A stretch of 64,000 nt of DNA from Mycoplasmataceae bacterium. GTDB taxonomy: Bacteria; Bacillota_I; Bacilli_A; Mycoplasmatales; Mycoplasmoidaceae. Location of the stretch: positions 1-64,000 of the forward strand of contig JAITFH010000019.1 of the NCBI GenBank assembly GCA_031281465.1, read 5' to 3'. Below are positions 1,477-45,745 of this stretch, piece after piece (positions within the stretch are counted from its first letter, which is position 1; each line of letters opens with the position of its first letter). The position numbers and the translations under genes were made by a program. Below the pieces are notes generated by a model. That model was not told the origin of the DNA. It was given only the letters and a program-made list of their open reading frames with translations, and searched no databases.

Positions 1477-3336
1477 CTAGTATCATCCTTGTTTAGATAG
1501 TTGAATTTTTTCTGTTGCTACTCTTCCGTTATTGGCTGTCAATTTCATTCCATCGTAAGGGGCAGGGTTAGCACTACTAACCTGTTCTGGGTATTTGATG
1601 TGTACATATCAACCACAAAGAGAGTTACCTGAATCTGTTTCAAGATGAATTTTGTACGTATCGCTTTCTACATTGCCTCTAAAATATGTAATTTTAATAC
1701 TATTAATGTCGATTAATTCGTCGCATTCAAGATCCAAGTAGCAACGTACGCCAAAAAAAATGAGGGATAAACCAAAACCTACATCCTCGTAAATATAGTG
1801 GTATGTATAGTTTATTACAGCGTTTATTGTCAACACTGGTTTAACTACAGAAAAAGAAAGTTCACTTTCAAAACCTTCTTCATTTTCATTTAATACAAAA
1901 TCAAATTCTTGTATAGTAACAGTACTAGGCAGTGTAAAAGATAAAGCATAGTCACTTGATGAAGTTCAACCTATAGTTATGTTTTGAGAACCAAAATATT
2001 GTTCTATTTCACTTTTATACTTATCAATTTTACTTTCCACATAAGAACTATTTTCAGCATCAACACTTATGTTGATTGTGTTTTGAATACCTACTTCATA
2101 TCTAACTTTATCTAAAGAAAACGATGGGGTATGTTCATAATAACAAACCCATTCAGTAGGTAAAGAAAAAACTCCTTCGCTCTCGATATCTTTAATTTTA
2201 ATCTCAAAACTAGTTGTTACGTCTGGTAATTTAGTACTATCAATTTGATAACTAAATTTCCCATCATTATAGAACGTCACATTTTTAATAGGAGTTTCTT
2301 CTGAATCAGATAAGTATAAATCTTCGTAATCGATAACTTCGTGTTTTTCAGTAATTGTTCCTCAGAAAATATTTTCTTCTTCGTCATCATAATCAATCTG
2401 TCCAGTAATGTGATATGGGTTATCTAATGTAAACATTAAATAAATTTCTCTAACAGAAAACTTGTACGTTTTTTCTACTATACCATCGGTGATAGTTACT
2501 TCCATTTCATTGTCAGTAACATCGCCTAAAAAATCCGTTAGTTCATTTGGAGTCAATTTTATTTGATTGTTTATTTTATCTATCTCAATATTAGTGTTAT
2601 CTAATAAAAATTCATCAGTTTTACTTGTATCTATTGCTAAACTATCTTTTCTTAATCCATCATAAAAGTAATTAATCGTAGCATATTCAAAATCATCTTT
2701 GTCATATTCTTTGATACCACCCATACTTAGTTCTACTTCTTTTACTTGTAAATCGTATTCGTTAGAAGAAATAGTAGGATTTTCTGAATCAACGATGAAT
2801 ATTGTTTTACTACATATTTCTTCTCATCCTGATTTTAGTTCAATCACAAAATAATAGTTATCTCCAACTTTCCCATTTCCTGTTTGTTGGAAACAACTTT
2901 CATCGAATTCTAGTTCTATATCGGTAGCATCTGATATACCGGTTAAACTATATGTTATAGTTACTGGTTGAGGATCATTGTAATAAACGGTTTCTGAGGA
3001 AACACTAATTATCGAGATAGAAGGTGTTATGTTAGGAATTCCACCGGTACCGTTATCACCGTTTCCATTGCTTCCGTTACCTTTACCACTTCCACCACCA
3101 TTGCCACCATTTCCATTCCCAGGATCGCTACCATTAGCTCCATTACCACCTTTTGAGTTTCCACTATCTTCTTTACTATCAATACCAGCTAAATTATCGT
3201 TTCTAAAAAGCATGATAAACGCATATGATAAACCACCACTAGCGAAAGCGGTGATTATGGTTACATAAAATCAAAATAAAAAGAATAAAGGCGTAGTCCT
3301 TTTACTATTAGTATTCTTAGAGTTAGGATATCTCAT
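1477..3336 (-). CDS. Membrane-anchored surface protein with Ig-like domains
   Basis: 619 residues with several TGA Trp codons. The N-terminus has a hydrophobic anchor at about residues 17-46, then a linker of about 45 residues built almost only of Gly, Asn and Ser with a few charged residues. The rest is beta-rich, in blocks resembling the putative Ig/cadherin-like repeats of bacterial surface proteins: alternating hydrophobic strands and Asp/Asn/Gly turns. No enzyme motif is visible. Inference: the anchor sits in the membrane and the flexible linker projects the beta domains outward. It lies just downstream of the Pro/Gln/Val-rich membrane protein at 3452-4936; an equivalent pair is found at 52.7-57.6 kb. 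Start chosen at the first ATG giving a complete anchor. The specific function is unknown. Confidence 0.75.
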
Positions 3337-3451
3337 ATTCTTAGTTGTATAAATTATAGTTTCCACATACAACTAATTAGTGTTTATGGTAGATTAGGAT
3401 TCGCTTCTTTTGCTAAAATAGTTTAATTAGTAGTAACACAATACTCCAAAA

Positions 3452-4936
3452 TTATTTCTGCTTAGACATTTTTTCTTCTAAATCTATTTCGTTTTCTTGT
3501 TGTAAAGTAATAACTAATGGTTCTCGTGATTTTTGAACAGGATTTGTAGTAACTTTTCTTTTACGTTTTTTAGGTTTTGGGTTTGTTGGTAAAACTTGTT
3601 GCTGAGTTTCAACAACTTGAGGAACTGGTTGTTGTGGTGCAACAGGACTATAAGGAGCTGTGTAGTAAGGATTTCCTGGTTGTGGTACCATTTGTTGAGG
3701 GTACTGAACAAATTGTTGGGGGTATTGGACAAATTGCTGTGGGTAAGGTGCTACCGGTTGAATTTGAGGTGGAGGTGTTTGACGAGGAATAGTTTGTTCA
3801 GGCATATCAACAGTAGCTGTACCGTCAGAATGTAAATTAATACGAATTGGTTCAGGAGAACCATTATTACTTTTTTGTGTTCCAACATTAACCTCTGTAT
3901 TTACTACTTTCTTTTTTGGTTTTCGTCTTTTCTTTTTAACTTGGTGAATAACAACCGGAACAGGTTGAATAGGAGCGGTTGTTTGAACCACTGGCTGAGG
4001 TTGTACATAAATAGGTTGGACTGGTGCTGGTTGGACAGGGACAACTGATTGATTCACTGGCTGGGGTTGTTGCGCATAAACTGGTTGGGCTACTGGTTGG
4101 ACAGGAGCAACTGATTGAATCACTGGTTGAGGTTGTTGCACATAAACTGGTTGGGCAGAAGTTGTTGGCTGTACAGGAACCTGCATTGTAGGAGTGGGTG
4201 TTTGGTTTACTTGAGAAACAACAGGAATTTGTTGAGGAACAGAAACATTAATAGTTGCAGCGACTGGTTGTTGTGTGTTTGCTACAGGTTGAACCTGAGG
4301 TGCTGGAGCAACTACAGGAGTAGGAGTTTGTGCCACAATCGGAGTTCGAACAACTGTTTTAACTGTCTTAACTGTTTTTTCTGTTTCTACAGAATTTAAT
4401 GCATCAAATTTAGTTTTCTTCACTACATAAACTATTAAAAGAATATTTCCAATTATTCCAAATATAGAACAAATTGTTCCAGTAAGTCCGTATCCAAAAG
4501 CTGCTGCTACCATTCCTTTTTCAAGGACAGGAAGGTTAGGAGCAATAAATATTGAAAGAATTGACTCGTAAACCAATTGGTTAGGAATAATAACCAAGAT
4601 TGAAAAAATAAATGTTATTGCAGAAAATGTTTTTTTAAGTTTTCCACTGCGAGTGGCTAAAGTTAGAAAAAAGAAATTTAGTCATACTATAAAAAATATT
4701 CCTGCAATAATCGCAATGTACAGAGAATCATTTGCATCTATGTATTCTTTGTACAATTCCAAAATATTTTTATAAACAGAATCTTTTGACCCAAACAATA
4801 CAGAAAGAATATCTTGCCCAGTGAATCCAGGATAAGCAACTAATTCCAAAGTTGCTAATCCTAAAATTAAAAATCCTAATACTGAAAACACTATACCAAT
4901 CGGTAACAAACTTGATTTATATTTTTTTGTTTCCAT
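3452..4936 (-). CDS. Four-helix membrane protein with Pro/Gln/Val-rich tail
   Basis: 494 residues. The first 170 contain about four membrane helices (roughly residues 11-33, 70-92, 98-118 and 138-165). The remaining 320 form a low-complexity tail rich in Pro, Gln and Val, with repeated units such as VYVQQPQPV and QYPQQFV, interrupted by strongly basic stretches (KKKRRKPKKK, KPKKRKRK). Within the tail a segment reading PIRINLHSDG resembles DIRINITDG near the end of the protein at 52680-53810, marking the two as paralogues. Proline-rich tails of this sort occur in cytadherence and cytoskeletal proteins of mycoplasmas, but no specific homologue is recognised. A TATAAT lies upstream near 4996. 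Its neighbour downstream is the Ig-like surface protein. Confidence 0.75.
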
Positions 4937-5118
4937 AATATTTTTGCAACCTAACTACATTTTATCCACATAAAAACATAGTTTTAGTTTATGCAAAAAT
5001 TATAACCTATTGATTAACCCTAATTAGCGACTTAGTCGCTCAGCAATCATTCTGGTAAATTAGTTACTTTTATTCCAGATATTATTTTTTGTGTTGAATC
5101 ATACAATGAAAGGATAAT

Positions 5119-7095
5119 TTAATTTTCTTTTGCGTGACTAAATAGTTTAGAAGGTAAACAACAAGTCTTTACGATAATCTGAGTTTCACGTCTGATTTTG
5201 TCTAAATCATCTGGTAAAAAATATGATTCATCATCGGTTTTCTTAAGGTATAGATAATAACAAATGTTTGTCAAGAATTTTTTCTTTTCATCATTTGTAA
5301 TAATTCCTTTTCATAATTCATCATAATTGTCATCTTCAAACTTGTAAGTCTTAGAAATTAAAAACTTCATGTTTTTACCATCTTTTTCTAAATCAATTTT
5401 GATTGGAAGAGAACTATCGTTAACGAAATCAATTGAAGCGGTAATTTTTTTCAAAACTTTCTGTACACCATTCATTCTTCTTTTTGATCATTGTCCAATA
5501 TTACTTTGGATTTCTTTGCCACCATCAGAATAAATTGCTTGCACAGCACTATTACAATATTCGTTTTTAAAGTTAACGCTATATTTTATTTTTCCATCAG
5601 TAGTTTCTACGAAAGAAATTTTTTCTATTGCACTTTTGTCACATTTAAAAAATATCTTTGTTAGTGCTTTATCATTTTCTTCTTTAGAAACATTAGTTCT
5701 TAAAAAGAAATTTTCACTCATTTTATAGAATGTTTTACTACTAGGAACAAGTAGTTTTTTAATAGTTTCATCTTGATGAATTGGTGAACTTCCGTTTGAA
5801 CTTCCACCTTTTCCTTCTCCAAAAATTGTTTCATCTTGACCTGCTGATACTAATGGATCTTCAGGATTGTTAGTGGCGATGGGAACTTCACTATTTTTTT
5901 CATAGTCTTCATTAATTAAATCATTAATCATATTAGTTAATTCTTTAGAAGCTTCAGTATCGTTTTGTAATGACATTTGGTCATTTAAGTTAGCCAATTC
6001 TTTATTATTAATAATTAACTCTTGGACTTGTTGGAAAAATAAATTTTTCTCTTCTGTTTCCATAAAGTCTTCACGAGATGTTATGATTAGTTCTTTAAAG
6101 AATGCTGGGTTATTTTTTATTTCAACATTAATATAAATTTTGTTAAGTAAAGAACCTAGATTATCAAAAATATCTTTTAAATATTGCTTTTTAATAAATA
6201 CTCCATTTAAAGAAAAGAACACTTGGTTGATACTATTGTACTCAGTGTATTTTTTTAAGATATCAATATGTTTTTCTTTGGTAGGATAAAAGATATTGAT
6301 GGTAAAATTAGTATCTTCTATTTTTAACAATTTAAGTTGGTTTTGTTCAATTAAGAAATTGTTAATAGGTTTTATCGTAATTCTATGTGCTTCATCTAAA
6401 TTTCTTGAATCACATACTACTATATTCTTTCTAATTCCACAAAAATAATTTGATAAAAATCTGTGAGATGGTGTAATACCACTAGAAGTTATTACAGTTT
6501 TAAGTTCATCGATTTTTTTGTAATCAAAATATTGTATTTTTGTACCAGTATATCCATCTTGTTCTTCGTATGGTTCAGTGAATACTTTTTGGTTTTCATC
6601 TACTAAGTAGCAATAAACTTCACCTAGTTGGTGAAGTGATACTTTTAATTTAAAACAAATTGTTCATGATTTTACATTTTCTTTAATACTTTCGACATAA
6701 GTTATTTTGCTGAAACTTAGTGATTGTTTAAATCCTTGAGAATATACACCATTTCTTGATTCAGATTGGTTTTGAGAATTAAAAGACAATAGATTGTTTT
6801 CCATTTCTGTTTGGGTTAATCCTCTTCCTGAATCTTCAATGGAAAAGATAAATACAGGATTATATTGAACAATTCTAATAACTGGTGATAAACCAGGAAG
6901 TTCATTCATTGCATCCAATGCATTATTGTATGTTTCTTTTATACCACTCATTGGTTCTCTAAGAGTGTTGATTCGAGAATAATTTCTCTCATCATTACCT
7001 ACAGGTTTAACATTATCTGGTAAAACACTGTAGACTTTTTCTAAATCTATATTTTTCTCAAAAAGAATGTTTTTTACATCGTCAAAATCTAGCAT
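5119..7095 (-). CDS. GHKL-type (Hsp90/MutL/MORC-like) ATPase of unknown role
   Basis: 658 residues reading two TGA as Trp. The N-terminal 140 carry the Bergerat ATP-binding signature: an N-box (ETYNNALDA), the DxGxG motif (EDSGRGL) and a glycine-rich lid (NGVYSQGFKQSLSF). There is no His-phosphoacceptor domain, so it is not a sensor kinase, and nothing resembles the GyrB/ParE transducer. The middle and C-terminal parts are alpha/beta with a low-complexity Gly/Ser patch around residues 400-420 and are not recognised. No partner gene overlaps it. GHKL proteins of this general form occur in chaperones, DNA-repair clamps and some phage-defence genes; which applies cannot be decided here. Confidence 0.7.
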
Positions 7096-7250
7096 TTTTT
7101 GTTTCTTACTGTATAAGTAAAATTATTATACTTTTAATTTTAAGTTTTTAACCCAAGGGCTTTTTACTATGTTTTCCCATCTAAAACATAGTTTTCACAC
7201 CAGATTAGAACGAGATATTTTTCGGTTCTAATAAATGAGAAAATTATGTT

Positions 7251-30032: not shown

Positions 30033-31427
30033 ATGAAAGTTGTAGAAATCAAACAAATCGTTAACGGTGGTTTAGAAGGTAAAGAAATAAATGTTCACGG
30101 ATGGGTTAAAACAAATCGTGATAGTGGAAAAATTTCATTTTTTGAAATTAACGATGGTTCTTGTCTTAAAAATTTACAAATCGTAGCTAAAGATGGGAAA
30201 ACTGAAGGATATGATACGATTGTAAAATCTGCAAGAACCGGAAGTTCTATTACTGCATCAGGAGTGGTTAAAAAAAGTTTAAAAACTAATGATTATGAAA
30301 TTGAAGCTGTTTCAATCAAGTTATTAAAACAAGCAGATGAAGATTATCCTTTGCAAAAGAAAGAACACTCTTTAGAATTTTTAAGAGACATTGCTCACTT
30401 ACGTCCTCGAACAACTACAATTAGTGCTATTATGCGTGTTCGTAGTAAGTTAGCTTATGCGGTTCATAAATTCTTCCAAGAAAATGATTTTATTTGAGTA
30501 GCAGCACCAATTATTACTTCTAACGATGCCGAAGGAGCTGGAGAAGGTTTTACTTTAGCTCAAGACCCTAAAAACCCATTCTTCGATAAAGTTCCTAGTT
30601 TAACAGTTAGTGGACAGTTAAATGCTGAAGCTTATGCTCAAGCATTTAAAAAAGTTTATACCTTTGGTCCAACATTCCGTGCCGAAAAAAGTCACACTAA
30701 CAGACATGCTAGTGAATTTTGAATGGTTGAACCAGAAATCGCTTTTTGTAATTTAGAACAATTACAAGTAGTTATCGAATTGTTTATTAAAAGTATTACT
30801 AAATACGTTAATGATGAATGTAGAGATGAAATAGAATTCTTTGCTAAAACTAAACCATACATTAAGGAAAGAATCGAACAACTATTAACTAAACCTTTTA
30901 AAAGAGTTGATTACCAAGAAGGAATTAAGATTTTAAAAGAAGCAGTTGAAAAAGGACATAAGTTTGAAGATAACGATATTTACTTTGGAAAAGATTTAGC
31001 AAGTGAACACGAACGTTATTTATGTGAAGTAGTTTTTAAATGTCCAATCTTCTTACAAAACTACCCATTAGAAATTAAAGCTTTTTATATGAAAGAAAAC
31101 GATGAAAGCAAATCTTATAAAGGTTCTGATTTACGTGATGTTTCAGGAAGAACAGTTGCTGCTAATGATTTATTAGTTCCAGGTGTTGGAGAAATAGTTG
31201 GTGGAAGTCAAAGAGAAGATTCTTTTGAAAAACTTTCTGCTCGTGTAAAAGAATTAGGGATGGATGTTTCTTCTATCGACTGATATCTAAACTTAAGAAA
31301 ATACGGTTATCATTCTTCAGCAGGTTTTGGTTTAGGATTTGAAAGAATGATTATGTATATTTTGGATGTGGAAAATATCCGTGATACTATACCGTTCCCA
31401 AGAACTGGTGGAAGCTTAAAATTTTAA
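30033..31427 (+). CDS. asnS: Asparaginyl-tRNA synthetase
   Basis: Charges tRNA-Asn. 464 residues: an OB-fold anticodon-binding domain ([20 protein letters not shown]), then the class II catalytic core with motif 2 ([21 protein letters not shown] in part) and motif 3 (GLGFERMIM) and the family ending TIPFPRTGG. Three TGA codons are Trp. The ATG is 9 bases after a TATAAT (30018-30023), so the leader is very short. The last 40 bases of the gene and the following 35 are duplicated at 42.4 kb, before the second restriction system; the TA-rich hairpin after the stop may serve as terminator. Confidence 0.97.
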
Positions 31428-31486
31428 TGGTGTCTAATTTAGCAAATAATTCTTTTACTCATATATATATATATATATATATATAT
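31383..31486. repeat. asnS 3'-end repeat, left copy, with (AT)13 tract
   Basis: From ATACTATA in the last codons of asnS through GAACTGGTGGAAGCTT, the stop, and GTCTAATTTA, this stretch recurs with a few changes at 42391-42451. It is followed in both places by a run of alternating A/T, here 13 AT units (31461-31486). Inference: flanks of an insertion, or two independent uses of one site. Confidence 0.65.
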
Positions 31487-34599: not shown

Positions 34600-35925
34600 A
34601 TGAAAAAAATTAAAGCGATTAAAGTTTTAGGAGGAGATATTTTTGAACAAAATATGCTCGATTTAATTAATCCTATAACATCGAAACCTTTTTCAACTAT
34701 TGTAATTGCAGGAGAAAATGGAACAGGAAAAACCATTTTTTTAAATCGTCTTGGTTATCAAGAAACGAATAGCCAAAAAAGTGTTGAATCATTTATTCTC
34801 GAATGAGACAAGAATGACCCTATACCTCAAAATTTACCTTTTAACCAAAGACTTATGCTACTTGATTTGAAAGACGAAGAAAACGAGATAAATATAAACA
34901 GAAACCAAAACCCTACTTCGGCTAAAGCTATCCTTTCTGAAGTTTTCACAAAAACAAAAGAAAACTATTACGCTATCGGAGTCAAAAATAAAGATGAAGA
35001 AAAAAAGCTAAATAGTGAAGAAATTTACAATGAAGCCACAAAACATTTAAATAATTTTAAAAGTGCATTTGATTATTTTTTTTACGATAGTAACCTTGTT
35101 ATGGACGATAATTTTGATAAAAGTAGGGGGATTTTATTTAGGCAAAATGGAAAGTTTTTTGGGATTAATAATCTCAGTGACGGACAAAAATCTATTATTT
35201 CCGGAGCTTCAAAAATACTTTGGACTGGTTCGTTTTTTCTTCCAGTATGTCTAGACGAACCTGATCAAAAACTCCATTTTTTGTGACAAAAGAAATTACT
35301 TTCTTTTTACAGGAAGCTTCTCACAAAAGATGAAGAACAAACACAGCTTTTTTTAACCACTCATTCAGAACATATAGTTAGGGAATCGCTGAATGCCGAA
35401 GACACTTTGCTTCTAATGTTCAAAAGGAACGAAAAATCAAAACTTACACAAATTTTTAGTTACTCAAAATCAGTTTCTCAAAGGCAACTTGATGAATCTG
35501 ATATTTTAAAAAAACCGACTTATTCGTATATCATTTTTTCACTTCTCAATATAGCTACCAATGAATTATTTGACGAACTTTACTGTGCTATAGAAGATAA
35601 AATTCGTTCTTCTTCTAAGAAACGAATAAATCATAATAAATTTCAAGAGTTCATAGATAATAATATCGACTTAATTTCTTCTAAAAATGAGTTCGAATAT
35701 TTTTCTTTAGAAGATGACGAAAACCCCTGAAAAGTTGAATACAAAATCAACGAAAAAAAAGTATGTAAACAAAAGATATCAGAACTAATAGTGTACCGTC
35801 AGCAAATACACCATCCAAATAATTTTGGTGAAAATACAAAAAATAAACTTTTATTATCTGTGGATAAATTACATAGTTACATAGAAGATTTAATTTCTCT
35901 TTTAAGAAAAGGAGTGACTCAGTAG
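34600..35925 (+). CDS. SMC/OLD-like ATPase inside the type I operon
   Basis: 441 residues. ABC-type ATPase of the AAA_15/AAA_21 kind: Walker A GENGTGKT (about 38-45), a signature-like LSDGQKS, Walker B LDEPDQKLH and a His switch TTHSEH. The OLD-type TOPRIM nuclease is not evident in the short C-terminal part. Starts 4 bases after the GIY-YIG gene and ends in TAG overlapping the GTG of hsdS. ATPases of this shape are partners of effectors in many defence systems (Gabija, PARIS, Septu, retron partners), so it may sense damage or phage DNA and work with the GIY-YIG protein next to it; this is inference. Confidence 0.75.
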
Positions 35926-37043
35926 TGGCTTCGCTTAGTTATTCTACAATCCTTGATAATTTACAGGAGTTAAAACGACAAATTATTGTTTCTACTCTTT
36001 CAAAATATAATTCGTACCCAAAAACTAAATTAAAATATCTGACAAAATTTATTCAAGCAACAGTTTATCCATATAACAAAGAAATTTGAAAAACAAAAAC
36101 CACCGAACACGAAATTGCGATCGTTACTGCTGGAAAAACTTTTATTTATGGGTATGGAGAAAAACAAAATCACCCATGTTTTAGTAAGCCTTGTATTTTA
36201 TTTGATGACTTTACTACAGATTGCAAATACATCGATATCCCATTTTATTTTCCTTCTTCTGCCGGAAAAATAATACTAAATAACAAAAACACAGACATTA
36301 AATGACTTTACTACACTATTCTTTCTCTACGTGGTACAGTTGAAACTAAGGATCATGGAAGACATTGAATAGAAGTATATTCAAATATCGAAGTCCCAAA
36401 TATACCCCTACACGAACAACAAATAATATCAAAGTACCTTGATGAAAAAATCAAGTACCTTGATGAAAAGATCAAGTATACTTTATCTTTAAAAGAATCG
36501 TTAGAAAAACTAAAATACTCTTTAATTTCAGAAAAAATTAAAACCTGTGCCAATAAATTTATTCCAAGTAAACGTTTTTTTTCAACAAAACGTGGCTTAG
36601 TACTATCAGTTGATAAAATCAGCAATTTGCAAACAGATATTTACAAATACCCTGTTTATTCTTCTCAAACAACTAACGATGGTTTGGTAGGATTTTATAA
36701 TTCATACCTTTTTGAAAAAAGTATTACATGGACTACTGACGGTGCTAAAGCTGGAACTTTTGTTTATAGAGATAAAAAATATTTTGCTACAAATGTATGT
36801 GGTACCCTAACACCTATATCTAAAAATATTGATTCAAAATTCTATTGTTATTGTTTTATGGCGAATTCTCATGAACAGAAAATTGATGGAGCAATGATGC
36901 CTAGGATGATGGGAGAAGATGTTCAAAAAATTCTGCTTCCGTTAGTTGATATTACTACCCAAAATAAAATAGCAGTTTGATTAGACAAAAAAATTTCTTG
37001 ACTAGACTCAAAAATAAAACTATTAGGAGGTAAAAATGAATAA
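35925..37043 (+). CDS. hsdS: Type I restriction specificity subunit HsdS
   Basis: 372 residues; GTG start overlaps the preceding TAG. Two target-recognition domains, each followed by a helical spacer: first half ends IPLHEQQIISKYLDEKI, second half ends DITTQNKIAVWLDKKISWL. The first spacer contains a direct repeat of the 7-residue unit KYLDEKI. Such spacer repeats set the distance between the two half-sites of the DNA target. The TRDs contain a typical beta-rich core (SSQTTNDGLVGFYN). The gene ends in TAA overlapping the start of the KAP NTPase gene (ATG 37036). Confidence 0.9.
36432..36473 (+). repeat. 21-base tandem repeat in hsdS spacer
   Basis: AAGTACCTTGATGAAAAAATC repeated twice (one base different, the second unit has AAGATC), encoding (KYLDEKI)2 in the helical linker between TRDs. 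Loss or gain of a unit keeps the frame. Confidence 0.85.
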
Positions 37044-38778
37044 CAGCCATATCAAGATAGTTAATGAAAAAATTAAAAAATACTTAACAAAAAATGATGA
37101 ACGAGCTTTTTTAATCGAAGGTGGATGAGGGATAGGAAAAACTTACTATATTAATAAAATTTTTAAACCAGACAAACACATTAGAAACTCAAGGGAGTGT
37201 GTTTATATTTCTACATTAGGTTTAAAAACTACAGAACAGTTGAATAATTTAATTCTAAAAAAATTAATGCTTTTAACAAAACATCAAATTAAAAAAGCTC
37301 TGTTAAAAGGGACAGAGACTGCTTTAAATACTTTAGCATTTTTTTTAAAAGGAGAGACTTTATTAAAGAAAGATTTCAAGTACACAATAAATTTGGAATC
37401 AGAAAAATTTGTTCTAATCATAGATGATATAGAAAGAAGCTTTATACCTGTCGAAGAAACTTTTGGATATATTTTTCCGTTGACTTCTACCGGAAATATG
37501 AAAGTTATAGCTATTTGCAACACTAACATAAAAAGCGGAGATAAATCAAATGAGGAGAAAATAACCGATAAAATTAAACTATCTAGAAACAAGTATTTTT
37601 CGGATTGAGTTAATTTTGACGAATTTAGCGAAAATTTAAGTTATCTTTTTAAAGATTATTCTTTTCTACAAGAGACACAGCCGTATATAAAATGAGAAGA
37701 TTTACCTCTTTGCTCTTCAACACTAAGCAATTTGACAAAACTTTTAATTGAAAACAACTTGGTTACAACTAACATAAGAGACTTAACTCAAAAAATTGAT
37801 GAATGTGAAAAACCTATAGAATTTTTTACCAGTATTATAAAAAACGAGATGCTATTTGCATATTTTTTGTTTTTATTTTGTACAAAACACGATATTAACA
37901 ATCGGATTTTCCTAAAAGATAAAAATACATATGAAGACGAGTTTGTCAAAGAAAAAGCTTTAGAATTATATAGACGATATACAAAGACAAATAATCTAAA
38001 TGAAGATTTTAAAGATAACATATCTGATTTTATAAAAGTATCGGAATCAGAAATTTCCAGCTTAAAAAACGAAAATAAAAATGTTCAAACATTAATTGAC
38101 TACTACTCTAATTCGTGATTTAAAGATAACTTTGATGAAGTAGTTGTTTTGGTAAAAGAAATAACTGACAATATGGACAAATATATTGGTTTTTATTCAT
38201 CTTTATTAAAACCAATAAGTATTTTTGCTACAGAAAAAATAATTTCATTAGAATTGTTTGAAAATTTCATGAAAAAATTCAACGAAGAATTTTTATTAAA
38301 TCATAGCAAAATACTACCTGGTTTATTTTTTTTCTACCACGAAACTTCTGCTGAGGTTCAAAAAGTCTTAGACGAATTTAGAAAGCCTGATAAGAAATTA
38401 GTAATGTGTAGGAAAATTTTTAATCGCAATACAAAACAATGAATAGAAATCGATAGAAATTATTACATAGACGATATATTCAATAATTCCAAATATGATA
38501 TATATTCAGATTGAAATGAATTTTTATTGCATCCTTCTACCGGTGCAATGAGCTATATTTACATTAAGTTAGAATTAATTCGTGATGAAATATTCAAAAA
38601 CAATACTCAACTCGATTTTCCTGAAAAGAAATTAAGAGAGTTTCTATTTCACAAGCAAAAAGAAATCAACGAAAGAAGTGAAATATTTAAAAATCCACAT
38701 GTTGAAGAGTTTAAAGTGTTGTTAGATGAGATAATAATTAAATGCGATAGTTTAGATTCAAAGGAGAAAAACACATAA
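37036..38778 (+). CDS. KAP-like P-loop NTPase in the type I operon
   Basis: 580 residues. N-terminal P-loop GGWGIGKT at about 29-36 and Walker B FVLIIDDIERS at about 130, a pair typical of KAP/STAND P-loop NTPases. The remaining 430 residues are helical and charged and contain no recognised sensor repeat or toxin domain; a hydrophobic patch (FAYFLFLFC) is present. It overlaps hsdS by 8 bases and hsdR by 1 base (TAATG), so it is tightly co-expressed with the restriction subunits. KAP and STAND NTPases in defence islands recognise phage proteins and trigger effectors; whether this protein does is inference. Confidence 0.7.
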
Positions 38779-41700
38779 TGACAAAACTGCAACTCCAACA
38801 ACTACGAGAACTTAATAAGAAAAAGTTACTCGAAAAAGAATTTTCTAACTACGAAGTAAGTAATGAGATGCATTTTGAATTTTACGTTCACAAATACTTA
38901 GTAAAAGAAAACGGTTTCAATGTGTACTTTGAAAAACTAGGAGATTCTATTTTTGATTATTCAACAAATCTAATTAAAGAAGACTTATTTGATTTTATCA
39001 AAACTAGTCAGCAAGAAGAATGAGATAAATTTGCAACATTATATTCATCTGAAAACGAATCAAAATTAGAAAATAGATTTATCGAAGAAATGGATAAAGC
39101 TATTGAAAAAGAAGGACTAATTCAAATACTAAGACATGGTTTTAACATAAACAAAATTCATTTTAACATATTCGGAAATTTACCTTCAAGTAAAAATTCT
39201 GAGAAACAAAACAAACTCTACGAATCTAATGTATTTACTTGCATCCAAGAATTTCACTACACTAGATCTGAACAATATAAAAAAAACCGAATCGATTTAG
39301 TATTATTTATTAATGGTTTTCCTTTAATAACTGTTGAACTTAAAAAATCAAACCAACAAAGTGTTTATGAAGCAATTGAACAATACAAAACTACTCGTCA
39401 ACCAGATGAAAGATTTTTCAAACAAAATTACCGTTCAGTAGTTTATTTTGCCATGAGCGATACCGATGTTTTCTTCACTACAAAATTAGACAACGAAAAA
39501 ACCAAATTTTTACCATTCAACAAAGGAAACGATTCTCACGGAGGAAACCCTATTGTTCCTGGTAAATACCCTACTCATTATATGTGAGAAGAAATTTTTA
39601 CCAAAGAATCGCTAATTAACATTTTTCAAAATTTTGTTTTCGTTTATAAAGAACATAACGAAGAAGGAATAGAAAAAAATTCTATCACTTTGTGACCACG
39701 TTTTCATCAACTAAACGATTTATCAAGAACGAAAGAAGAATTATTAAAATACTCAAGCAAAGAATGATGAAACGGTAAGGATTTAGCGGACAAAAATATT
39801 AGACATCATTTTCTATTTGCAAATGCACCTGGTAGTGGAAAAACTCACGAGATTGGCTGGTTATCTTTTTTATTAGCTAAATTAAAGGATAAAGAAAATA
39901 ATAACTACTTTGACTCAATAATTATCGTCACAGACCGTAAGGTTGTTGATCGACAATTACAAGAAGAGATTAAACAATTGGATAATGCGTATCATAATGA
40001 CTCTATTGGATACTATCAAATTTTAGATGATAAAACTACAAGTACCGATTTAGAAAATTATTTAAATAAAGGGACACGAATTATTGTGACAACTATTCAT
40101 AAATTTTCTAGAATAAAAGGGATTTTAAAAACAAAAGACAAAAATTATGGAGTAATTATCGATGAAGCTCACAGTTCAACTAGCAGTGATCTTAAAAATA
40201 ATATGGAAAAGGTTTTGAATAATACTTATATTTTTGAAAATAATACGGAAAAGAAAAATACTTATACTTTTGAACCAGAAAAAGAAAGTGAAAGTGAAAG
40301 AACTCAAACCGACGAGGAAAAAGAAACAGACGTCGATTCTGATGCGGTTACATATTTCACTTTTACTGCCACACCTAAACCTATCACTAAAGAACTTTTT
40401 GGAATTCCAAATAAAGAAGGTAAACCTGAAGCATGAGCTTGTTATTCCATTCAACAAGCTATCGAAGAAGAATTTATTTTAGACGTTCTTAAAAGGGTAA
40501 TAATTTACGAATTAAAAGGTGCAAAAATAGAAAAAGTTATTGATGAAAACCCTATTCTAGAAACAGGAAAAACTATCAAGAAAATAAAAAATAAAATAAT
40601 TGATTGTAGTCCGGAAGTGATTTCAAAGAAATGTGAAGTAATTGCTAAGAATTTTCCTTTCGTTTTATCTTCGCTTAACGGAGAAGGAAAATGTATGATA
40701 GTTGCTCCTAGTGTTAAAAGTGTTCTAGTTTATAAACAATGTTTAGAAAACTTACCAGAATTTAAAAATCAAAAAATATTTGTGGCATTTACGGGAAAAG
40801 TTGATGGACAAACAGAATCTAGTATTAACGGATTTTCTGACGAAAAAACAGCTATTGAGTTTAACAAATCCGAAAACAAAATACTAATTGTTTGTAATAA
40901 ATTTCAAACCGGATTTGATCAACCTAAACTAACCACACTTTTTGTCGATCAACCGTTATTCGGTGTACATGCCGTACAAACATATTCAAGACTTAATAGA
41001 ATTAGAAACAATAAAGAAACTTTGATAGTTGATTTTGTAAATACTATGAACGATATCATCCAATCTTTTCAACCTTTCTTCGTACCTACAGTATTGGATT
41101 CGAGTGATTTTGATCAAAAAGAATTCGAAAAAGTAATGCAAGAAATAAAGTCTGAAAATTTTTATACTTCCGAAGAACTAGAAAGATTCAATGAGATACT
41201 AAGAATGAAATACAACAAAAAAGATAAGTTAGATGAAAACGATGACAAAGAATTTGTAAACATTTTGCTCCAAATAAACAATCGTATTCATAACAAACAA
41301 AAATATACAGATATTCAAATTTCTGATTTCGAACAACGATTTAAATACTTAGTTAAATGGTATCCAATTATTTATTCAATATTTAAATTAAAGTACGACG
41401 ACGAATATAGACTGTTTAAATGTTTAGAAAAAAGTTTTCCAAGACCAGAAAGAGGTTGAAATCCTATAGGAAAAGTAGATTTAAAAAATGCTAATATAAG
41501 ACTGGTTGGAGAATACTATGATAACGTTGTAATTCCTCAAACAGAAATAACTCTCAAAAGTCCGGTTGTTCAAACCACTCCTATTACACTTCAACAATGC
41601 TTGGATGAAATTATTAAACGAATAAACATGTACCTTGAACCAAACCTAATGCCTTCAAAAATAGAAAAGTCTGTTCGAAATTTGCTTGAAGAAGCTGTTA

Positions 41701-41960
41701 AAAAAATAAATGGTGACGAAGATTTGATGAATAAAATCGCCAATGCTAATAATAGCGATAATAAAAAACTAGAATTTTTAGGAAAAGCTTTAACAAAAGA
41801 AATAAGTAATATTTATAAGAATAATGAAGAATATGATGGTGAAGACAAGGGAAAATTAGAACGTTTGCTAGATAAAAATAGTACAGAATTTAAATACGTT
41901 CTAGATGTTTCATACGAGTTTTTAAAGAACTCATTACATACAGGAGAAACAGATGAATAA
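38778..41960 (+). CDS. hsdR: Type I restriction endonuclease subunit HsdR
   Basis: 1,060 residues, many TGA Trp codons. N-terminal nuclease domain with RIDLVLFINGF and TVELKK (PD-(D/E)xK type), then the DNA translocase: Walker A NAPGSGKT, DEAH box IIDEAHSS, FTFTATPKP, and in the second RecA domain QTGFDQPKL and QTYSRLNR. The C-terminal helical part would contact HsdM. ATG overlaps the KAP gene stop. This is the motor that drags DNA before cleavage. Product size agrees with other HsdR proteins. Firm. Confidence 0.94.
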
Positions 41961-42201: not shown

Positions 42202-42545
42202 TTTAAAGATTGAATATCTTAGGATTTTGTATTGTTGTATTTCTTTTTGATTTGGTATTTTCTCATAATATTCGTATTAAATAACGATACCAACGAGGGA
42301 CAAAGTCTCATGCCAACCACACAAAGCTAATCTATTAAAACTCGTTTGTTTAAAAATTACATTATAATTTTTACAATAGTATTTATTCTAATACTATATA
42401 CTGTTCGCAAGAACTGGTGGAAGTTTGAAATTTTAATGATGTCTAATTTAACCAAAAAATCTTTTAGTAATTACCTATATATATATATATATATAGGTTT
42501 TTAAACCCGATAAACTCAAATTTTATACGAAAGGAGGCATTTTAA
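42202..42545. other. Gap with second copy of asnS 3' end
   Basis: 344 bases between the two restriction systems. It holds the duplicated asnS 3' end at 42391-42451, an alternating TA run at 42476-42495 flanked by ACC/GGT, making the palindrome ACC(TA)10GGT followed by TTTTT, and a strong ribosome site (AAAGGAGG) for the next gene. No separate gene is seen. Confidence 0.6.
42391..42495. repeat. asnS 3'-end repeat, right copy, with (TA)10 tract
   Basis: AAGAACTGGTGGAAGTTTGA and its flanks correspond to codons at the end of asnS; the stop and GTCTAATTTA follow as at 31427-31440, then a TA run. About 60 bases are homologous with some substitutions and a 2-base indel. Rather than a second asnS, it is a fragment of the end only. 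Confidence 0.65.
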
Positions 42546-44312
42546 ATGCCTAATCGCTACAAAATAATTGATATTATTGGAAAAAAATATTATGAATCAA
42601 ATATAGAAAATGGAGAGTTTTCTTATCCTAAAGCATTAAAGGATGATTTAAAAATTCTGAAAGAAAAACTAGAAGGAAATAAATATTTAGATATCAGGTT
42701 TACTGATAAAACCAAAAAAGTTTCAGTTTTAGTAGAAACGAAAGCGAAGTTCAATATAAAAGATGAAGAACAACTTTTTAATTATGTAGAATTAGAGAAA
42801 AGACTGGAAAAAACAAATGATATCATAGCTATTTTAGCGAACACGACTGACGATAAAATTAAGGTTTGGAAAGTTATGCACAATAAAATAGAAAAAGAAT
42901 TATTGGAAGCAGAAAGTAAACTCAAGTCTTTCTCTGAATATACTTCTCTTCTTGAACCACAAAAAGCTAATGATAAAGAGAAAATAATTCAATCCACTTA
43001 TGAATTAAATGAAATTTTACACAAAGAAGGAATTGATGAAAATTTAAGAAGTCAGTTTGTAGGAACTATATTACTTAGTCTTAAAAATGGTTTAAACTAC
43101 AACGGGTTAACTACCTCTCAAATTTTAGCTGGAATAAAAGAAATTTTAAACAGACTAGTAGAAGGTTTAAATAAAGCTGAAAAACTTGTAATATTGGATA
43201 GAAAAATTATTCAACACGAACACATTCGTAAGTTAGAGAGTAAAAACTTAATAAGAGTGCTTGACTTTATCAAAAATAACATTCTTCCTTATATAAACGA
43301 TAACACTAACGAAGGACAGGATTTGTTGAATTTGTTTTTTACTACTTTTAATAAATATGTAGGTAAAAAAGACAAAAACCAAGCTTTTACTCCTGATCAT
43401 ATTGTTCACTTTATGTGTAAGGTTGCTAAGGTAGATCGTAATTCTCGTACTTTAGACCCAACTTGTGGTTCTGGAGCGTTTTTAGTTCAAGCTATGGTTC
43501 AGTCGTTAAAAAACTGTAGAACGGAAGCGGAAAAAAATAAAGTTAAAAAGGAACAAATTTATGGTATAGAATATGAAGAGCAAGCTTTCGGACTAGCTAC
43601 TACAAATATGCTAATTCACGGGGATGGAAACACCAATGTAATAAATGCGGACTGTTTTAAATCAGAAGACTTTATTCGAAATGCTGACATTAATGTTGTT
43701 TTAATGAACCCTCCTTACAATGCTCAGAAAAAGTATATGCCCAAAGAATTTACTGATAAATGATCTAATTCTTCAACAGATCCATCAAAGGGTTTTTATT
43801 TTGTAAACTATGTATCTAAATTAGTCGGCAAAGGAAAACTTCTTTGCTTACTTCCTTTAGCTTGCGCTATTGGAAATAGTGGTCCGATTGAGGAACAAAA
43901 GGAACAGATGTTAGAAAACAATACGCTAGAAGCAGTCTTTACTCTTCCTAACGAAATGTTTTACCCAGGAGCAAGTGTGAATGCTTGCTGTATGGTTTTC
44001 ACTTTAAACAAACCTCATCCAGAACACCATAAAACATTCTTTGGTTATTTTAAAGATGATGGTTTTAAAAAGAAAAAGAATTTAGGAAGAATCGATAAAG
44101 GAAACTGAAATTCAATAGAAGATGAATGACTGAATCTATTTGAAAATAAAATCGAAAAAGCTGGTTTATCAGTTGTTCACGAAGTTACTTATAAAGATGA
44201 GTGATTAGCTGAAGCATACATGGAGACTGATTATTCAAAACTAACTCAGCAAGACTTCGAACAAACAATCAATGATTATTTGGCTTATTTGGTGAAAAGA
44301 GGAGATAAATAA
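42546..44312 (+). CDS. BcgI-like fused methyltransferase/nuclease subunit
   Basis: 588 residues. N-terminal 120 residues contain a compact domain with DIRFTDKTKKVSVLVETKAKF, resembling the acid-acid-Lys core of HSDR_N-type PD-(D/E)xK nucleases, then a helical linker and an N6-adenine methyltransferase (DPTCGSGAFL, NPPY). The C-terminal tail is helical. Three TGA Trp. Good ribosome site. The locus contains no separate hsdR; with a specificity gene two genes downstream, it fits a type IIB/IIG (BcgI-like) enzyme in which one protein both modifies and cleaves. The nuclease call rests on the VETK motif only. TAATG overlap with the HEPN gene. Confidence 0.75.
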
Positions 44313-44692
44313 TGACACAAAGCTTTTTAGAAAATATTCGTAACGAATTTGAGATATTAATAAAAAAGTGTCCCCAAATGACACCAAAAGATTTATGACC
44401 TAAATATTTTCCTACCGGTATGATGGAAATTAGATGAGACGAAGATATGAGAGGGGTTGAAAATAGATATAACTATATAATTTTTCATCTTTACGACGAA
44501 TTAAAACAAAAACAAAATAATTATTTAAGTGATGTTATAGGCGCTGAAAAAATGTTATGACTCCGAGAAAGCAGAAACCAACGTGCACACCCAGGGGAAA
44601 TGATGGAAAAAATCAGACAACAAAAATATCATTTTTCGTCATGCTGTAATTTATGAGAAATTATTAAAATTTTAGAAAGCAACGTTAAATAA
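44312..44692 (+). CDS. Small Swt1-type HEPN domain protein
   Basis: 126 residues, all Trp codons TGA. Near the C-terminal third stands ESRNQRAHPGE, matching the R-x4-H motif of HEPN RNases (Arg-Asn-x3-His). Its sequence from MTPKDLW to the end resembles the Swt1-family HEPN domain found in restriction loci. Its ATG overlaps the stop of the methyltransferase gene and its stop is 1 base from the hsdS start. HEPN proteins commonly cut RNA as abortive-infection toxins; here it could be a second line of defence or a structural partner. No activity is proved. Confidence 0.6.
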
Positions 44693-44693
44693 T

Positions 44694-45745
44694 ATGAGAT
44701 TGGATATACAAAAATGAAAAGATTTCAAATTAAAAGATTTGTTTACTTTTGTGAAAGGAAAATGTTCCAATGCACCAGATTTAGAAGACGGAGCGGATAT
44801 TCCTTATATCGGTGCTAAAAAAGAAGAGAATGGTGTTATGAAGTGAGTAAAATTTGATAAAGACTTAGTTAACGATGGAAACTGTATTTGTTTTATTTGT
44901 CAGGGAGAAGGTTCTAATGGTTTTAATAATTATTTTGAGAACGATACAATTAATACCACTTCCAACGTTTTAGGATATAACAAAAAATTAAACAAATATA
45001 ATGGTTTGTTTTTGGTGACTGTTTTAGATTTAGAACGCCCTAAATGATCTTTTGGAAGAGGACGTGCGCCAAAATTAAAAGATACCATTATCAAACTTCC
45101 TGCTATCTTAATTAACGGAAAATACGAACCAGATTGAGAAAGAATGACAAATGAAATAAAAGAAATATATATATACCTAAGCAAGAAAGCTTACGAACGA
45201 ATGTTGAAAAAAGAATTCCAAATTTAAGAACAGACATCGCAAAATACAAAGTTTCCGAAATTTTCGAAATTATTAATGGGAAAGGAATAACTGATGAAGA
45301 AATTTCTGAAATAGCTGACGGAGATATACCGTGTATACAAGGTGGTGAACAAAATAATGGTATATTAGGATATTTTTCAAAAAAACAAATAGGTGACAAA
45401 AAATATAAATATATCGACGAACCGTCACTCACTTTATCTAGAGTTGGTTCTGCGGGAGCAATTAATTTTCACAAAAAATGTTTTATAGGAGACAAAGCCA
45501 AAAGTCTGATATTAAAAGAAAATTATGCGTCCCATAAAAGCACATATGTTTATTTATATTTATCCGTAATACTAAGAGCTAATCAATTTAGATATACCTA
45601 CGGAAGAGGAATTGTTAACGAAATTTATCAAAATATTATTTTAGAACTTCCAACTAAGAATCACCAACCAGACTGGGAATTTATGGAAGAATACATTAAA
45701 TCTTTATCTAACAGTGATTTAATAAATACATATCATAATCTTTAA
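44694..45745 (+). CDS. hsdS: HsdS specificity subunit, split by TA-tract frameshift
   Basis: Specificity protein for the BcgI-like enzyme. ATG 44694 opens a first half with a TRD (KLKDLFTFVKG, CFICQGEGSNGFNN, RPKWSFGRGR) that ends prematurely at TAA 45225-45227 after 177 residues. The second half, 45176-45745 in a different frame, is a complete TRD2 (KYKVSEIFEIIN, ADGDIPCIQGGEQ, TYGRGIVNE) with a spacer ending EFMEEYIKSL and TAA. They join smoothly if the ATATATATATA tract at 45165-45175 loses 2 bases: GAA ATA TAT ATA CCT AAG. So the frame break is at a dinucleotide repeat, the hallmark of slipped-strand phase variation. In this state only a TRD1 half-protein is made. Confidence 0.8.
45165..45175 (+). 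repeat. (AT)5A slippage tract in hsdS
   Basis: Alternating A/T run at the boundary between TRD1 and the second half of the second-system HsdS. One TA unit fewer (or two more) restores a continuous frame. Confidence 0.8.

Follow-up and report, generated by a model that had tools for sequence, protein, structure and literature searches.

A candidate TA-tract phase switch in the specificity gene of a BcgI-like restriction-modification system from a Mycoplasmataceae bacterium

In the DNA analyzed here, a window of 64,000 nucleotides from a Mycoplasmataceae bacterium, the gene for the specificity subunit (S) of a restriction-modification (RM) system is divided: its two TRDs lie in different reading frames, and a short AT run stands between them (Table 1). 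This arrangement raises the question of whether the gene is permanently split or whether the run acts as a switch that separates and rejoins the two halves, as an earlier note on this locus had proposed. A TA-tract phase switch of S in a BcgI-like RM system is probably the best explanation. The anatomy of the locus, its frames, the protein family, and the junction position and frame behavior of the relatives were all directly observed and are described below.

Table 1. Features of the BcgI-like locus and its repeat tracts (window coordinates).
Feature	Position	Strand	Description	Family match
(TA)10 tract	42476..42495	+	within a perfect ACC...GGT palindrome, 50 bp 5' of the RM start	
RM subunit	42546..44312	+	588 aa; PD-(D/E)XK nuclease at the N-terminus, N6-adenine methylase in the same polypeptide; partner of S	
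ORF between RM and S	44312..44692	+	126 aa	none
S gene as presently read	44694..45227	+	TRD1 half of 177 aa, the last 18 aa being an out-of-frame tail	PF01420 Methylase_S, 9e-14
TRD2 frame	45128..45745	+	shifted +2, open	Specificity_II, 5.7e-14
AT tract	45165..45175	+	candidate slip site between TRD1 and TRD2; ATATATATATA; 11 bases = 5.5 units	

All frames of the S gene were called with translation table 4, in which TGA is read as Trp, as in this organism. Translated in this way, the gene bore out the description in the earlier note: an 11-base AT run with TRD1 and TRD2 in different frames. The present 11-base state yields the TRD1 half-S. Removal of exactly one TA in silico (9 bases) joined the halves into a 349-aa two-TRD protein, again as the note had claimed, and the addition of two TA units (15 bases) gave a joined two-TRD protein of 351 aa. 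With one TA added (13 bases), a half of 162 aa resulted, and the joined phase is thus one of the three possible tract phases. A single half-S profile matched both TRD1 and TRD2 over almost its full length, and the TRD2 domain proper (~45230-45706) lies within its open frame. Among the ATG, GTG, and TTG codons of that frame we found just TTG 45134, which lies 5' of the tract and lacks a Shine-Dalgarno sequence, and ATG 45683, which lies close to the end of the TRD2 domain; neither is a usable start. Independent translation of TRD2 was rejected because suitable start sites are absent.

When the S gene was shuffled 5000 times with its dinucleotide counts preserved, 0.4% of the shuffles contained an AT run of at least 11 bases anywhere in the gene, and none (0/5000) contained one within the 110-bp junction. 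For the junction position, this test rejects the idea that a run of this length is commonplace in a genome rich in AT. Three TA runs of at least 11 bases were observed in the 64-kb window, against 0.05 expected from dinucleotide-preserving shuffles, and nine in the whole 1.25-Mb genome. Four of these nine are located in RM loci that together make up ~19 kb, namely in the hsdM gene of contig 2, 5' of hsdM1, 5' of the RM gene, and in the S gene.

The class of the system was assigned from the partner of S. The nuclease motif of the RM subunit (D49, E64-T-K66, Q76xxxY80) is kept in 27-28 of 28 RM homologues from many bacterial groups, and an N6_Mtase domain was also detected. PADLOC ranked models of Type IIG nuclease-methylases best for the RM protein; for TRD2, its best model was a Type II specificity subunit. 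The RM subunit showed no match to the HsdM N-terminal domain (PF12161), which was matched by the genuine HsdM of this genome, encoded on contig 2. We therefore rejected filing the locus under Type I, given a partner that carries a nuclease motif, lacks PF12161, and is not a separate nuclease-free HsdM. Because a PD-(D/E)XK nuclease is fused to the methylase in the partner, the locus is, judged from its sequence, a BcgI-like (Type IIB/IIG) RM+S system with a nuclease-methylase subunit and a separate S. The label hsdS given in the earlier note consequently holds insofar as the product is a specificity subunit, but not in its Type I sense, since it is a BcgI-like S that serves a fused nuclease-methylase. 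In the joined phase, S has two TRDs in 349 aa and fits the ~340 aa of BcgI-like S subunits, whereas the present phase does not.

An hsdR gene lies upstream of the RM gene (38778-41960). A tblastn search found no relative of this hsdR in any RM-homologue locus, and the gene is most likely part of a distinct Type I locus, with hsdM1 (31548) and hsdS1 (35925) as its likelier partners. The latter gene (35925-37043) carries 2.2 copies of a 21-bp repeat (KYLDEKI; 36432-36478) in its central spacer, similar to the TAEL repeats of EcoR124. The 126-aa ORF between RM and S had no counterpart in the homologous loci examined; by eye, it shows an R-x4-H motif (RNQRAHP) resembling that of HEPN-like proteins.

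The (TA)10 tract 5' of the RM gene is possibly a second variable tract, acting at the level of expression. It is one of two long TA tracts in the window (20 bp, and 26 bp at 31461-31486), each of which lies 5' of a different methylase gene and follows a copy of the 3' end of asnS (~42399-42462 and ~31386-31449, respectively, by alignment). The Type I genes between the two tracts have the appearance of an island that was inserted or duplicated.

We located the TRD junctions in related loci by running the half-S domain profile over them. Including the window, 17 S-gene junctions in Mollicutes contain a dinucleotide tract of at least 5 units, and 11 of these are split, close to the two-thirds expected under random phase. 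No split was found among the 27 tract-free junctions, 16 from Mollicutes and 11 from other bacteria. For Mollicute junctions with and without a tract, the difference corresponds to a Fisher p of 9e-5, which is only a guide because the counts are not independent: several of the tract-bearing genes are closely related, and the window itself is counted.

The closest TRD1 homologue (G082, 62% identity) is split at an (AG)11 junction tract with the same frame offset as the window. Other split junctions include those of G129 and G054 (~9 AG units each), G246 with (AG)7, and G151 with (AG)11, and the junction tracts of G146 are (AG)13 and (AG)15. In-frame tract-bearing junctions were found in G111 with (AG)9, G238 with (GA)8, G005, and G035. 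Three near-identical S genes (G147, G149, and G150; TRD1 97.7-98.1% and TRD2 96.2-97.4% identity) carry (GA)16, (AC)9(AG)20, and (AG)10, respectively, and only that of G150 is in frame. This trio, in which tract length differs between near-identical genes, is the strongest single comparison. A point against the switch is that the repeat unit differs between the window (AT) and its relatives (AG, GA, or AC/AG). In the eight further tract-bearing loci for which upstream genes were retrieved, the ORF before S shows, by eye, a nuclease-like D...ExK motif close to its N-terminus. A search of IMG/VR for close TRD1 relatives, in which other tract lengths might have been seen, found no such relative.

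According to the earlier note, the switch would be refuted by homologues that share a fixed split and begin their second half at a genuine start. A TRD2 start preceded by a Shine-Dalgarno sequence was present in none of the 11 split junctions, several of which have no start codon at all. With tracts at homologous junctions being widespread and variable in length, and near-identical genes occurring in both phases, the comparison supports the phase-switch idea.

Several of the related loci showed further peculiarities. In G144 (L169:7047-8870), three TRDs follow one another in tandem; the first junction has (AG)35 and the second (AG)5, and neither is in frame. Several of these TRDs are common to neighboring species, which suggests TRD shuffling. 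In G025 (L068 ~6526-6590) and G008 (L069 ~6097-6135), the S junction contains in-frame 21-bp tandem repeats (EKSVKEL-like) and has no dinucleotide tract. The RM gene of G246 (L165:1611-4792) is seemingly interrupted: between the portion for the nuclease (4331-4792) and that for the methylase (1611-3032) lies an opposite-strand ORF (3108-4277) that may encode a transposase. In G150 (L170:5074-7126), where S is in frame, the RM gene is apparently split into overlapping ORFs (5074-5622 and 5609-7126).

The earlier note had argued that both outcomes of such a switch make sense, and the comparison supports this. Natural one-TRD members of the family were found, nearly all of them fused to the RM polypeptide (e.g., L083, L086, L088, L094, and L095). 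The half-S of 177 aa was predicted by AlphaFold to fold well (pLDDT 91), with a single helix (residues 148-175) that passes through the residues encoded by the tract into the out-of-frame tail; the tail prolongs this C-terminal helix. A joined homologue (L075) was modeled with moderate confidence (pTM 0.55). Foldseek matched the half-S to structures of Type I HsdS as well as to BsaXI, an enzyme of Type IIB, and MG438 was matched by sequence profile. Judged from sequence, models, and analogy, both half-S and joined S are plausible products.

The existence of one-TRD relatives and the modest length of the tract (just 5.5 units) also fit a different reading, in which the gene permanently encodes one TRD, with TRD2 left over as a recent, still undecayed remnant. 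We regard this as unlikely: TRD2 is wholly open and matched end to end by the profile, and the confinement of splits to tract-bearing junctions (11/17 vs 0/27) is unexpected under decay. More improbable still is an assembly or sequencing error in a true gene of 9 tract bases that encodes the joined protein. While the genome is a draft of 72 contigs, a two-base error in an AT run of 11 bases would generally be unusual if short reads were used, and splits at tracts recur in other genomes, including the single-contig G149, G151, and G246. Very improbable is a fixed tract whose two halves are translated separately or are united through programmed ribosomal frameshifting. TTG 45134, which precedes the tract in the frame of TRD2, speaks for this reading; against it, all split junctions lack a Shine-Dalgarno-preceded TRD2 start, several lack any start codon, and an unsystematic look revealed no evident frameshift stimulator.

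The tract switch in the S gene is hence most likely real, and we propose that it would work as follows. The TA tract sits in what is predicted to be a helical linker between the TRDs, and strand slippage that adds or removes TA units would change the frame at this point. Tracts of 9 or 15 bases would give a two-TRD S of ~350 aa with an asymmetric two-part target, and the other two phases a TRD1-only half-S of 177 or 162 aa. The half-S might pair with itself and recognize a palindromic TRD1/TRD1 target, or might instead be inactive. Because cutting and methylation both use one S subunit in a BcgI-type enzyme, they would toggle together. Slippage of the TA tract in vivo, half-S dimerization, and target change are steps that we infer, and with its 5.5 units the tract lies at the short end of the range and may slip slowly.

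Repeat-switched S subunits are already known. In the Type I system NgoAV of Neisseria gonorrhoeae, hsdS1/hsdS2 are governed by a polyG tract (PMC9577141, PMC6789123); the system yields a truncated S, which is active, or a joined S that recognizes a different target (PMC9577141). As proposed here, a repeat tract in the S gene sets the one-TRD or the joined two-TRD form, but the NgoAV tract is polyG instead of TA, and its HsdM and HsdR are separate, in contrast to the fused RM subunit of the window. Phase variation has also been claimed for mycoplasma hsdS genes that contain AG[n] (Atack et al. 2020, as cited in PMC9465063 and PMC7394358). As far as these citing accounts go, the likeness lies in dinucleotide repeats in Mollicute S genes, and the difference in the AG units and the description as Type I, against TA in the window. 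In Ca. Mycoplasma girerdii, all observed repeat indels occurred in tracts of at least 5 units, with HsdS among the affected genes and variants present in the reads (PMC5476646); this is likewise a length-variable dinucleotide repeat in a Mollicute S gene, although one described as Type I.

With regard to the enzyme, the closest parallels are of Type IIB. A BcgI-like system comprises two RM subunits and one S, and HaeIV has one TRD fused to RM in a symmetric form (PMC3874165). The locus resembles BcgI and BsaXI in its fused nuclease-methylase and, in the joined phase, in its two-TRD S of ~340 aa, and HaeIV shares the arrangement of the RM-fused one-TRD relatives; no phase variability of these three enzymes is described in PMC3874165. 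EcoR124I/II also have repeats in the inter-TRD linker, where G025 and G008 have their 21-bp repeats, yet these TAEL spacer repeats of EcoR124I/II stay in frame and change the spacing (PMC3874165), leaving the protein unsplit. What is added here is the TA unit, the BcgI-like RM partner, and the comparative junction pattern; we do not claim the BcgI-like context as new.

A broader reading is more tentative. It could well be, though we hold this to be slightly short of an even call, that Mollicute BcgI-like S subunits have repeatedly gained inter-TRD dinucleotide tracts (AG, GA, AC/AG, AT), which would randomly switch cutting and methylation together between the symmetric target of a half-S and the asymmetric target of a full S. 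Other tracts occur in the genome from which the window comes (G000). A (TA)8 within the coding region of the Type I hsdM of contig 2 (L072:8570-8585; HsdM_N and N6_Mtase domains), now in frame, is likely an ON/OFF switch of a second system. Across many contigs (L150-L164) we counted ~20 long (AG/CT)n tracts, and most of the 15 stretches inspected have their tract close to the N-terminus of a gene resembling those for surface proteins (SLSLSLS), in one case with leucine-rich repeats; dinucleotide phase variation is therefore plausibly a general habit of the organism. At L160:1249-1268, an (AG)10 ends a 415-aa ORF with a PAPS-reductase domain, adjoined by a gene for a GHKL-type ATPase, possibly a phase-variable defense or DNA-modification locus.

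If the switch works, cells of one population would cut and mark different DNA sequences, which would affect the entry of phages and plasmids and possibly gene expression. Because cutter and marker use one S subunit, switching would leave unmarked sites open to the cell's own nuclease, and how cells survive this self-exposure is a testable question. With junction tracts present in many Mollicutes, tract length in existing sequence data would then serve as a predictor of specificity.
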